From positions 1-64,000 of the forward strand of contig DATCTV010000037.1 in assembly GCA_036567785.1 (NCBI GenBank): a DNA stretch of 64,000 nucleotides, written 5' to 3'. The DNA comes from Desulfomonilia bacterium. GTDB lineage: Bacteria > Desulfobacterota > Desulfomonilia > UBA1062. The position numbers and the translations under genes were made by a program. The notes under the pieces were generated by a model that was not told where the DNA came from, ran no database searches, and saw only the letters and a list, made by a program, of their open reading frames with translations. Below, in pieces: positions 4,750 to 9,338 of the stretch. The first letter of the stretch is position 1, and each line of letters starts with the position of its first letter.

Positions 4750-5402
4750 TTATTGCACCGTCAATACTTTCCGCAAACTTTACAAGGCTGGGCCAGGATA
4801 TTGATATGGTTGTTTCAGCCGGGGCACAGTGGGTTCATGTGGATGTCATGGACGGGATGTTTGTGCCCAACATCACCATCGGGCCTGTCGTTGTAAAGGA
4901 TATAAGAAAAGCGACAAATGCCTACCTGGACTGTCACCTTATGATAAACCAGCCTGAAAGATATATAGATGCATTTGCAGCCGCCGGTGCCGACGGCATA
5001 ACCATTCACGCAGAGGCTACACACCATCTTCACAGGGCTCTGGCCACGATACGGGAGAAGGGCCTCAAAGCCGGAGTTGCCCTGAATCCCTCAAGTCCTT
5101 TACCGGTGATTGAATATTGCCTTGATGTAATCGATCTCCTTCTTATTATGACTGTGAATCCGGGATTCGGCGGACAGTCTTTCATCGAAGCGATGATCCC
5201 GAAAATAGAAAAAGCATCAGATATGATATCGGGCAGAGACATCATTCTTCAGGTTGACGGCGGAGTTGACAGAAAAAATGTAAGAATGCTCAGGGAAAAA
5301 GGTGTCGGCTCTGTTGTGGCCGGCTCAAGCGTATTTGGAAGCAGCGACCCTGCTGGGGCGGTAAAGGAGATGCTTGAAATTGCAGAATGTGAAGTTTGTT
5401 AG
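4746..5402 (+). CDS. rpe: Ribulose-phosphate 3-epimerase
   Basis: Interconverts ribulose 5-phosphate and xylulose 5-phosphate in the pentose phosphate pathway. A 218-residue TIM barrel with family landmarks: APSILSANF at the N-terminus (catalytic Ser), HVDVMDGMFVPNIT (metal ligands and catalytic Asp), HLMI, MTVNPGFGGQ, and QVDGGV with the second catalytic Asp. The C-terminal phosphate-binding region reads VVAGSSVFG. Start and stop are both shared with neighbours: ATGA overlap with fmt, and the next gene begins inside its last 29 bases. Confidence 0.97.
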   Translation: MIIAPSILSANFTRLGQDIDMVVSAGAQWVHVDVMDGMFVPNITIGPVVVKDIRKATNAYLDCHLMINQPERYIDAFAAAGADGITIHAEATHHLHRALATIREKGLKAGVALNPSSPLPVIEYCLDVIDLLLIMTVNPGFGGQSFIEAMIPKIEKASDMISGRDIILQVDGGVDRKNVRMLREKGVGSVVAGSSVFGSSDPAGAVKEMLEIAECEVC

Positions 5403-6972
5403 AATATTGATCGGACTCTTTGTTGCGGCAGCGGCCGCAGGCTGTGCCAATGCAAATACCGCCGCCTCGGTGCAGGAAGATGCAAATCAGACCAGCCCAT
5501 ATCTTACAATGATTCTTGCAAGACAGGCAGAAGACAGCGGAGACACTGACAGCGCGCTAAAGCTTTACCAGGAATTGAACAATTCTTACGCATGGCTTAA
5601 TATCGCCATGATATATATCCAGAAATCCGATGATGAAAAGGCTCTGGAATATCTTAACAAGGTCCTTGATTCCGGGGATTACATAGAGGATGCCCTTGAT
5701 CAGAAAGTCAATATATATGTCCGTTCGAACAAGGTTAACGAAGCCGTTGCAGAAGCTGAAAAATACTATAAGAAATACCCGGGTAATGTTCAGATAATCG
5801 TTCTTCTTGCCAAACTCAGGCTTTTTTCATCGGATCCTGAAGGGGCGATAAAGATACTGGAGAAGATACCCCCGGGGAACGAAGACATAGAAGCGCTATA
5901 CATACTTTCCAGGGCGTGTCTTGAAGAAAAAAACAAAGCCTGCGCAATTAAATCCCTGGAAAAAGTAATAGAACTGGCACCTGATTTTTCTCAGGCATAC
6001 ATTGATCTCGGAAGGGTTTATGAGAGCGATGGGAATCTGGATGAGGCTATCAGCATATACACCAAACTGTGTGAAATAGATCCTTCAAGCAAGGAGGCGC
6101 GGCTTGCTCTGGCCGACCTGTATATATTGACAGGAAGAAACAAGGATGCCATTGCACAACTTAAGGCACTGCTTGAAATCTATCCCAACCGTGAGGTCAT
6201 GCATAAGCTGGCAATACTTGAGATTGATGACGGCATGTATGCCGATGCGATTGAGCTCCTGAATACCCAGACACAACTGATGCCGGAAGAGAAATATTAC
6301 CTGGCCATTGCATATTCAGGCCAGAAGGACTTTGACAGAGCCATTGCCCTTCTTAAGGAGATTGAGAACGACCCTCAGCTTAAATGTGACGTGTCGATAC
6401 TGAAAAGCTCAATTCTTGAAGACATGGGAAAAAGCGGCGAAGCATTTGATGAGCTGAAAAATACCTGGGAAAAGGTATCAAAGGAAACGTCATGCAGGGA
6501 AGTGGGATACCGTCTGGCCACAGCACTTGAAGAAAAGGGAATGATCAATGAAGGCCTTGCCGTTGCCGAGAGTATTCTTTCAGCCGATCCCAATGATGCC
6601 ATGATGCTCAATTTTGTCGGTTATTTGTGGGCGGATCAGGGCAGAAATCTTGAGAAGGCGAAGAAAATGATCAGCGATGCCCTTACGGCAAGACCGGATG
6701 ATGGATTCATTATGGATTCGATGGGCTGGGTATTGTATAAATCGGGTAAGCCCGCCGAGGCTGTACCCTATATGGAAAAGGCGCTGAAAAAGTATCCGGA
6801 CGAGCCTTTGATAAACGAACATATGGGTGATATTCAGTATAAGCTCGGCAGAAATAAAACCGCCCTCGAATATTATCAGAAGGCAAAGGCAAACTCCAAA
6901 AAGGGCGTCTCGCCAGCACTTGAGAAAAAAATCACCGAACTAATTAAAGAGATTCGCAAGACCGGGAGATGA
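5374..6972 (+). CDS. TPR-repeat lipoprotein
   Basis: A 532-residue protein with a membrane-export signal ending in AAGC, a weak lipobox, so probably lipid-anchored. It is then almost entirely tandem tetratricopeptide repeats (for example ALEYLNKVLDSGDYIEDALD, YIDLGRVYESDGNLDEAI, ADQGRNLEKAKKMI, YKLGRNKTALEYYQKAK). TPR arrays are protein-binding scaffolds; the partner here is unknown. The start used is TTG at 5374, with AAAGGAG 4 bases before it; GTG at 5389 is an alternative. The frame overlaps rpe by 29 bases, and the stop is followed one base later by the MlaD gene. Coupling to mlaD and the repeat protein suggests an envelope role (inference). Confidence 0.88.
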   Translation: MKLQNVKFVRILIGLFVAAAAAGCANANTAASVQEDANQTSPYLTMILARQAEDSGDTDSALKLYQELNNSYAWLNIAMIYIQKSDDEKALEYLNKVLDSGDYIEDALDQKVNIYVRSNKVNEAVAEAEKYYKKYPGNVQIIVLLAKLRLFSSDPEGAIKILEKIPPGNEDIEALYILSRACLEEKNKACAIKSLEKVIELAPDFSQAYIDLGRVYESDGNLDEAISIYTKLCEIDPSSKEARLALADLYILTGRNKDAIAQLKALLEIYPNREVMHKLAILEIDDGMYADAIELLNTQTQLMPEEKYYLAIAYSGQKDFDRAIALLKEIENDPQLKCDVSILKSSILEDMGKSGEAFDELKNTWEKVSKETSCREVGYRLATALEEKGMINEGLAVAESILSADPNDAMMLNFVGYLWADQGRNLEKAKKMISDALTARPDDGFIMDSMGWVLYKSGKPAEAVPYMEKALKKYPDEPLINEHMGDIQYKLGRNKTALEYYQKAKANSKKGVSPALEKKITELIKEIRKTGR

Positions 6973-6973
6973 C

Positions 6974-8011
6974 ATGACTAATGAAGCAAAAGTCGGCCTT
7001 TTCGTGGTTGGTATAATTGTGGTCTTTATTGTTATGTCGATAAAAATTGGTGAACTGAGCTTTAACAAAAAGGACACTTATCCGATTACACTCAGATTCC
7101 CTACAGTGGAAGGGCTGAAAGTAGGATCAACACTGGAGCTTGCAGGCGTAATTGTCGGAAAGATCAGCTCGATATCACTTGGAGAGGACTACTCCGTTGC
7201 CGTAACCGCCAATGTCAATGATGATATCAAACTTCCTATAGACAGTGTCGCATCAATCGGTACGAAGGGTGTACTGGGAGACAAGGTCATCCTGTTGTCA
7301 CCGGGAATGTCAAAGGAATACCTGAAGCCCAACGGTATGCTGGCAAGGACTGAAGTGCCGCCGTCTCTCGATTTTCTGCTGACCAGGCTCGGAGATATAG
7401 CTTCCAACCTTTCGGATCTGACCAGATCCCTTAATGCATCTCTCGGAAGTGAAGAAACTATGGCCAATATTACCGAGATGATGGAGAACCTTAACAGCCT
7501 TTCAGCAGAACTCAATGATATGGCAATAGAAAACAGGGAAGGCATAAACAGCATGATAACCGAGCTGAACAATACGGCTGTAAATCTGACCGACTTTTCC
7601 GAAAGCCTTGCAAGCACCGGTGAGGATATTTCCTATATTGTGGCTTCTGTCAAAGCAGGTGAAGGCAATATCGGCAAACTGTTCACAGACGATACGCTTT
7701 ATGTATCCCTTGCGGATTCGGTTCAGAAGCTTCAGGTGGTGACTTCCAGAATACAGGAAGACAACAACCTGACTCTCTTGTTAAGTGATTCAACAATTTA
7801 TTATGACCTCGTGGCGCTGTCGGACAACCTTAAACAGGTGAGTGAACATATAGCCGCCGGTGACGGTACCATAGGCAAACTCCTTACTGATGAAGAGCTG
7901 TATCAGGCGCTGCTCGAAGCGATCAAGAACACCAACAGGGCGGCTCAGGGCATACATGAACAGACTCCGATCACTGTTATGGGTTCACTGCTTGCCCCGA
8001 TGATAAGGTAG
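6974..8011 (+). CDS. MlaD/MCE-family substrate-binding protein
   Basis: A 345-residue single-pass protein. An N-terminal membrane helix (about residues 8-24) is followed by one MCE domain (about 35-115: TLRFPTVEGLKVGSTLELAG through KGVLGDKVILLSPG). A long helical, Asn/Ser/Glu-rich region follows, with repeated GxGxIGKL(F/L)TD(D/E) segments near residues 223 and 296. MCE proteins shuttle lipids between membranes for Mla-type ABC transporters; in the Mla system MlaD works with the MlaE permease and MlaF ATPase. Neither partner gene lies nearby in this window. It sits one base after the TPR gene and one base before the repeat protein, so the three are one transcription unit. Confidence 0.88.
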   Translation: MTNEAKVGLFVVGIIVVFIVMSIKIGELSFNKKDTYPITLRFPTVEGLKVGSTLELAGVIVGKISSISLGEDYSVAVTANVNDDIKLPIDSVASIGTKGVLGDKVILLSPGMSKEYLKPNGMLARTEVPPSLDFLLTRLGDIASNLSDLTRSLNASLGSEETMANITEMMENLNSLSAELNDMAIENREGINSMITELNNTAVNLTDFSESLASTGEDISYIVASVKAGEGNIGKLFTDDTLYVSLADSVQKLQVVTSRIQEDNNLTLLLSDSTIYYDLVALSDNLKQVSEHIAAGDGTIGKLLTDEELYQALLEAIKNTNRAAQGIHEQTPITVMGSLLAPMIR

Positions 8012-8012
8012 G

Positions 8013-9338
8013 ATGAAAAAGACATCGGCTGCGGCATTGATATTTGCCATTACCCTTGTCCCTGCCATCGTCATGGCCCTTGAAATCAATATCGCACCTC
8101 TTTTTTATTACCGGAGCAATGATGAAGGGAAAACATTAAATGCACTGGGGCCTGTTTTTGAGAAAACCGGTGAAGTTACTGCGGTAAGGCCGCTGTTCTT
8201 CAGGGATAAAGACGAAACGGATTTTCTTTACCCGTTGGGCAGGTCCCATGACGGTGCTACCCGCTTTATCCCGATATACTATTCCGAGAATAAATGGCCC
8301 GAGAAACATACAACCATTTTCCCGGTCTTCTGGGGGAAATATTATGAAAAGTCCTATGGAGGCGTATTCCCGCTGTATGGAAAGATGATACACCGGTTTG
8401 GCAAGGATGAGGCTGAATTCTGCCTCTGGCCTGTCTATATGAGGACGTCGGTTTCCGAAAAAAACACGTACACCATGTTCTGGCCCGTATTCACGTACAG
8501 CAAAGGGACCAGCTACAAGATGTTTCCTGTCTATGGCTGGGAAAAACATCGTGGTAGTGTAACACAGTACATGTTCTGGCCTTTCCTGTTCAGGGAAAGG
8601 GGCGATAAACACATGGACGCCTTTCTGCCCTTTTTCCAGTACACCACATGGAGCGACGCCTGGTCCGCATCGGTCCTCTGGCCCTTTTTTTCATTCGGCA
8701 GGGATAATGGCAGGAACCAGACGAGCATAGACGCTCCATGGCCTTTGATAAAATATGCGAGGGGGGAATATGATCAGACAATGGTATTCCCCTTCTATTA
8801 TAATTATGAAAGGGCAAACATGTACAAAACTGATATGTATATGTGGCCGATCTGGTTTCAGGCCGTGACATCGGACCCGGCAAATGAATATTACAAAAAA
8901 AACGTCCGTTTCATGATCCTTGTCTCTGGAAGGGAAACAAGAAAACAGGGAAGCAAGAGCTATCAGATGAACCTCTGGCCTCTTTATTATATAACAAAAG
9001 ACGAGGATGAAACTTTCTGGCATTTCCCGAGTGTCTTCCCGTTTGATTATGAAGGTGTTGAAAATAACTGGGCCCCTATTTTCACTTTTGTGAGCTACGA
9101 GAAAAAACAGGACAAGGCATACTTTGATATATTGTGGAAAACCTTTTACATTGAAAAAAACGCAGAGTTCATGAGATGGGCGCTCTCATTCCTGGTGTCA
9201 TTCGAGAACAATCCCCAGTACTGGCAGATAGGCTTATTATCAGATCTAATAAAGTTCAAAGGAAAAAAGAACGAGAGGTCCGAATCTGACAATTCTTTTG
9301 ACAGCAATGCAGCCGATGAAGTAGATTTAAAGGAATGA
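8013..9338 (+). CDS. Exported protein with about 18 aromatic-Pro-aromatic repeats, unknown function
   Basis: A 441-residue protein with a signal peptide (about residues 1-22, cut near ALA-type residues). From residue 29 to 355 it repeats a short motif of the type (F/L/M/V)-(W/F/I)-P-hydrophobic-(F/Y/W): examples are IFPVFW, LWPVYM, FWPVFT, MFPVYG, FWPFLF, FLPFFQ, LWPFFS, VFPFYY, MWPIWF and LWPLYY. The conserved Pro falls every 12-20 residues, about 17 on average, with charged or polar turns between. Such spacing suggests beta hairpins of a propeller, solenoid or barrel (inference). I do not recognise the family. Two bases after mlaD; a role in envelope lipid or surface handling is a guess from context. 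Confidence 0.85.
   Translation: MKKTSAAALIFAITLVPAIVMALEINIAPLFYYRSNDEGKTLNALGPVFEKTGEVTAVRPLFFRDKDETDFLYPLGRSHDGATRFIPIYYSENKWPEKHTTIFPVFWGKYYEKSYGGVFPLYGKMIHRFGKDEAEFCLWPVYMRTSVSEKNTYTMFWPVFTYSKGTSYKMFPVYGWEKHRGSVTQYMFWPFLFRERGDKHMDAFLPFFQYTTWSDAWSASVLWPFFSFGRDNGRNQTSIDAPWPLIKYARGEYDQTMVFPFYYNYERANMYKTDMYMWPIWFQAVTSDPANEYYKKNVRFMILVSGRETRKQGSKSYQMNLWPLYYITKDEDETFWHFPSVFPFDYEGVENNWAPIFTFVSYEKKQDKAYFDILWKTFYIEKNAEFMRWALSFLVSFENNPQYWQIGLLSDLIKFKGKKNERSESDNSFDSNAADEVDLKE

Follow-up and report, generated by a model that had tools for sequence, protein, structure and literature searches.

The open reading frame at positions 8013-9338 on the forward strand of the window (the 64,000-nucleotide stretch of DNA analysed here, from contig DATCTV010000037.1 of a Desulfomonilia bacterium, assembly GCA_036567785.1) encodes a protein of 441 amino acids, a predicted exported ladder of about 20 β-hairpins with aromatic-proline corners. 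The family of this protein, to which we give the working name FPV, is very probably the dedicated partner of a long MlaD protein without a β-barrel. Furthermore, FPV probably serves as the outer-membrane-side lipid relay of the pump that contains this long MlaD, in place of MlaA and MlaC.

The presence of FPV coincides with a particular C-terminus of MlaD. All 80 distinct MlaD proteins encoded next to FPV (277-429 amino acids, median 342) end in a conserved hydrophobic tail, EQTPISVLGTxxG. By profile search, FPV was found in 109 of 394 genomes of Desulfobacterota, usually as a single copy, and a profile of the tail (A4, 46 columns) gave a strong match (E < 1e-13) in 108 of these 109 genomes; the 285 genomes without FPV gave no strong match and only 11 weak ones (E 1e-3 to 1e-5). 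The sole FPV genome without a tail match (G061) is an incomplete assembly in which FPV is cut at a contig end. The correspondence holds within the families that include both kinds of genome (f9, f27, f54 and f55), and of the three long MlaD proteins encoded by one Nitrospinota genome, exactly one bears the tail. FPV is unlinked to the mla genes in the Kiritimatiellae and in part of the Thermodesulfobacterium group, and a tailed MlaD is nevertheless present in the latter (L137, L147). Of five Kiritimatiellae genomes, four (L152-L155) encode a remote MlaD with the C-terminus TPISTFGSLIMGGL, and the fifth yielded only another MlaD. Since the correlation between tail and FPV persists when the genes are unlinked, physical linkage cannot explain it; it is most simply read as a dedicated interaction of the MlaD tail with FPV.

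The gene neighbourhood points in the same direction. Among the 94 distinct FPV loci with enough flanking sequence, 81 adjoin mlaD or mlaE, as mlaE-mlaF-mlaD-FPV in 72 of them (the order in most families, with short gaps or overlaps) and as FPV-mlaE-mlaF-mlaD in the other nine (L037, L097, L099, L124, L131, L133, L134, L139 and L143). The occurrence of the same genes in two arrangements indicates selection for the association of mla genes with FPV. In the family to which the window belongs, the pump genes are scattered, and only the genes for a tetratricopeptide repeat (TPR) lipoprotein, mlaD and FPV stand together; the window genome has mlaE at G000:C30:129083, and its closest match to mlaF, with 54% identity, lies at C62:167706. 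MlaE, MlaF and an MCE-domain MlaD are encoded either with FPV or in the same genome. The MCE domain (PF02470) was present in all 36 FPV genomes tested in the phylum, which had been chosen to include many with FPV not beside mla genes, and in all 15 genomes of the named FPV loci. The sequence-only reading had proposed that the protein is a partner of MCE or lipid-transport proteins, noting that it is translated in a row with a TPR lipoprotein and MlaD. This proposal is supported by the near-universal and specific co-occurrence with mlaD and by the lack of a match to any characterized family, and the row itself is real, with 1-base gaps between the genes. The TPR lipoprotein did not prove to be a regular neighbour of FPV: its gene adjoins FPV in no family but that of the window, and we rejected it as a core part of the system. 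An apparent MlaD-FPV fusion of 808 amino acids (G243:C14, L135) is an artefact, as runs of N bridge separate mlaD and FPV genes.

FPV and the classical periplasmic and outer-membrane components of the Mla system tend to exclude each other. MlaA is encoded in 20 of the 109 FPV genomes (18%) versus 207 of the 285 genomes without FPV (73%), and MlaC in 23 (21%) versus 219 (77%). We examined three genomes that possess both systems (G067, G243 and G322) and found them in separate operons, with an MlaD of 146-168 amino acids near MlaA and MlaC and the long MlaD with FPV. The MlaD proteins of the MlaA/MlaC type in the same phylum have this same length of 146-168 amino acids and lack the FPV-type tail.

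The corner prolines of the window protein lie at residues 29, 47, 60, 74, 87, 104, 120, 140, 158, 172, 190, 206, 224, 244, 260, 279, 323, 339/343 and 355, all within hydrophobic-Pro-hydrophobic motifs. With a strict pattern, 12 such motifs were counted between residues 29 and 355; when the same residues were shuffled 20,000 times, the count averaged 0.84 and never exceeded 6. Averaged over the 19 corners, hydrophobic residues occupy the positions -2, -1, +1 and +2 around the proline in 80-92% of cases, and at a distance of 6-8 residues from it 37-45% of the residues are charged. Across 35 aligned homologues, which are 18-38% identical to the window protein, most invariant columns correspond to the corner prolines; W157 and the segment G-x-FP-x-YG-x4-RFG-x-D are conserved as well. 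The aromatic-proline repeat with charged turns that had been read from the sequence at residues 29-355 is therefore real, with prolines mostly 13-20 residues apart, but its description had to be refined: the hairpins run on without proline corners to residue ~418, and each repeat comprises a hairpin together with a corner, not the bare motif.

AlphaFold2 models of the window protein (mean predicted local distance difference test score, pLDDT, 90.8; predicted template modelling score, pTM, 0.74) and of the homologue L022 (pLDDT 90.3, pTM 0.78) both consist of ~42-45 strands, mostly of 4-6 residues, in the regular order strand, charged turn of 2-4 residues, strand, (L)WP(L) corner, strand. One edge of the protein would be aromatic and aliphatic and the other charged, provided that successive hairpins stack on each other; a continuous sheet, at 4.8 Å per strand, would be about 200 Å long. 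Foldseek searches with these models returned no match over the whole chain, the query-normalised TM-score being at most 0.24. The confident local matches (probability 0.9-1.0, same TM-score limit) were open hairpin ladders: the MORN proteins 7sqc chains 9A, 9E and 9F, junctophilin-2 and Toxoplasma gondii MORN1, as well as an engineered OspA and the CPAP/Sas-4 TCP10 domain. WD40-type matches, some of them with good E-values or probability, were discarded as not meaningful at the level of the fold (root-mean-square deviation > 20 Å, TM-scores ~0.1). MORN-repeat proteins, OspA and TCP10/G-box domains, which are open ladders of short antiparallel hairpins, are thus locally similar to the predicted FPV fold, but the TM-score is low for all of them, and FPV has no MORN match in Pfam. 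None of these three kinds of ladder is known to have the aromatic-proline corner motif.

We propose that FPV belongs to a distinct MCE transporter composed of the permease MlaE, the ATPase MlaF and the long barrel-less MlaD. Like known MCE proteins, this MlaD would assemble into a ring at the inner membrane, from which a helical tube would extend into the periplasm, and its hydrophobic C-terminal tail would dock on FPV. Being exported and elongated, with an aromatic-proline edge that runs unbroken along the hairpin ladder, FPV may then transfer phospholipid between this tube and the outer membrane, and would so cover the roles that the outer-membrane lipoprotein MlaA and the shuttle MlaC have in Escherichia coli. 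In this proposal, we infer the export of FPV, its position on the outer-membrane side, the docking of the tail, the contact with lipid and the direction of transport.

Several points speak against these conclusions or restrain them. Profile A4 was built almost wholly from MlaD proteins adjacent to FPV, with more than 80 of the genomes matched lying outside its building set; profiles A1 and A4 contain sequences from some of the genomes scored, and the absence calls depend on profile sensitivity. The Fisher p values (~1e-22) overstate independence, as the genomes are related. Moreover, MlaA or MlaC is encoded beside FPV's own system in 27 of the 109 FPV genomes, which makes replacement a tendency. 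The window protein has a hydrophobic signal-like N-terminal segment without a lipobox, and only a few homologues have one, so that the outer-membrane location is putative. The complete lipobox at the signal site of at least two homologues (LVGC in L023, LSGC in L024) is in keeping with an envelope lipoprotein. Finally, MORN proteins, whose fold comes closest to the predicted one of FPV, failed to bind liposomes or membranes, although TbMORN1 bound lipid chains (PMC7725318); these results neither prove nor exclude that FPV carries lipid.

A bolder form of the relay is that FPV is a free-standing, single-layer β ladder of ~200 Å (~42 strands at 4.8 Å) whose aromatic-proline edge acts as a lipid slide across the periplasm. 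We offer this only tentatively and think it rather doubtful; if true, FPV would represent a new kind of bridge-like lipid transfer protein that is powered by an MCE pump and has no relationship to AsmA/TamB, LptA or the MCE tubes. FPV could also be an assembly or anchoring factor that caps the MlaD tails or holds them at the outer membrane or the peptidoglycan and carries no lipid. The specific link with the MlaD tail would fit docking alone, the ladder fold is like that of scaffold proteins (MORN, TCP10/G-box), and the failed liposome binding of MORN proteins (PMC7725318) agrees with such a role. Still, we judge it unlikely, as the aromatic-proline edge far exceeds, in length and in conservation, what docking would require, and the loss of MlaA and MlaC from FPV genomes implies a substitute for lipid exchange with the outer membrane.

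It is very improbable that FPV is an outer-membrane β-barrel, i.e., a counterpart of the C-terminal barrel of Veillonella MlaD encoded by a separate gene. FPV is all-β, has a signal segment and is encoded with a barrel-less MlaD, and barrel-bearing MlaD tends to go with absent MlaA and MlaC (Grasekamp et al., PMC10665443); however, transmembrane strands would need about eight or more residues, whereas those in both models have mostly 4-6, and the confident local Foldseek matches are open ladders, not barrels. It is hardly credible that FPV has a general role in the envelope and that its gene is just a passenger of the mla operon: its location elsewhere in the Kiritimatiellae and part of the Thermodesulfobacterium group would suit this idea, but a tailed MlaD is still present in those genomes, and the co-occurrence of FPV and tail across the 394 genomes is essentially perfect.

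A lipid relay dedicated to the long MlaD would have parallels in known systems. MCE proteins form hexameric rings or tubes extending from the inner membrane (PMC10665443, PMC12436622), and in Veillonella parvula the outer-membrane end is a β-barrel fused to a long MlaD (Grasekamp et al. 2023, PMC10665443). The V. parvula MlaEFD system shares with the FPV system MlaE, MlaF and a long MlaD without MlaA and MlaC, the proposed trans-envelope bridge and the anti-correlation with MlaA and MlaC, but there the barrel is part of MlaD, whereas the FPV-type MlaD bears a short hydrophobic tail and the second component is a separate, unrelated hairpin-ladder protein. In Brucella Mpc, the outer-membrane end is served by a PqiC-like lipoprotein (PMC12436622). 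Mpc (MpcEFDA) and E. coli PqiABC resemble the FPV system in that their operons encode a long MCE protein and a single dedicated partner for it on the outer-membrane side (PMC12436622); this partner is a PqiC-like octameric lipoprotein, whereas FPV has no Pfam match and another predicted fold. The Mla system of E. coli (MlaA, MlaBCDEF) likewise has MlaE, MlaF and an MCE-domain MlaD, but its MlaD has 183 amino acids and works with MlaC and MlaA, compared to ~342 amino acids and a tail in the FPV-type MlaD, with MlaA and MlaC mostly absent. Grasekamp et al. noted that most long MlaD proteins are barrel-less and mentioned as yet unidentified proteins; how such MlaD proteins reach the outer membrane without MlaA and MlaC is a question stated in their paper (PMC10665443), and FPV fits this gap. 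As a usually single-copy protein that tracks one MlaD tail almost perfectly, FPV offers a concrete, testable answer for a large bacterial group.

Database searches agreed with the earlier statement that this exact pattern is known from no described family. The window protein has no Pfam match, and none of 35 FPV members matched any Pfam family at E ≤ 0.1, including MlaA (PF04333), MlaC (PF05494), the PqiC-type (ABC_trans_aux) domains and the MORN repeat, and the PDB gave no match to FPV by sequence or by profile. In NCBIfam, the window protein had no match and homologues had only sub-cut-off ones, chiefly to the LA_1737 family: NF047486 (LA_1737_Cterm) weakly matched five of the 35 members (best E 2.5e-5), all below its 60-bit threshold. 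LA_1737 is thus a possible distant relative of FPV, and the weak similarity of the five members hints at a broader superfamily of ladder proteins with Trp/Phe-Pro motifs. A control search with LA_1737 gave no matches anywhere, and a literature search on it returned only unrelated papers. No description of the FPV family was found in the literature searched, which is weak evidence of novelty given that most subscription journals and bioRxiv preprints were outside its scope. Judging from the models, FPV adds an apparently undescribed protein family with an unusual predicted fold.

FPV homologues are present in 44 of 60 relatives. A contig scan of named assemblies with a small mixed alignment identified 50 FPV loci (the window protein alone gave none) in Thermodesulfobacteriota, including Thermodesulfobacterium, Caldimicrobium, Desulfobacca, Syntrophorhabdus and UBA1062, in Nitrospinota and in Verrucomicrobiota/Kiritimatiellae/Lentisphaerae. 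A shorter FPV-like open frame of 264 amino acids (L148:4774-5565) lies away from the mla genes in genome G006, which also has a full-length FPV, MlaA and MlaC.

All genes described here for the window are on the forward strand. A putative Sec-type signal segment of FPV (8013-8078, residues 1-22, with presumed cleavage) includes a helix at residues 2-15 in the model. Directly upstream, the long MlaD of 345 amino acids (6974-8011) matches PF02470 (8.4e-18) and TIGR04430 (1.1e-30, under the cut-off of TIGR04430). Its MCE domain is encoded at 7076-7306 and its C-terminal tail, AAQGIHEQTPITVMGSLLAPMIR-COOH, at 7871-8008, where the FPV-specific signature is matched by profile A4 with 73 bits (G000:C37:7871-8005). 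Between the MCE domain and the tail, this MlaD and its relatives contain GxGTLGKLxxDxxLY repeats, with several copies in many homologues. The first gene of the row (5374-6972) encodes the TPR lipoprotein of 532 amino acids, an accessory neighbour kept only in the window's own taxonomic family. The window genome has a second MCE set on contig C17, whose MlaD lacks the FPV-type tail, and beside its solitary mlaE lies a gene for a small exported protein (L115:5956-6528) whose end is PEP-CTERM-like. In the Kiritimatiellae, FPV comes after a TPR membrane protein: the Kiritimatiellae/Lentisphaerae homologues of ~370 amino acids (L110-L114) lie away from mlaEFD, beside a TPR membrane protein of ~1,060-1,120 amino acids, and at L111 FPV precedes a UbiA-type prenyltransferase.
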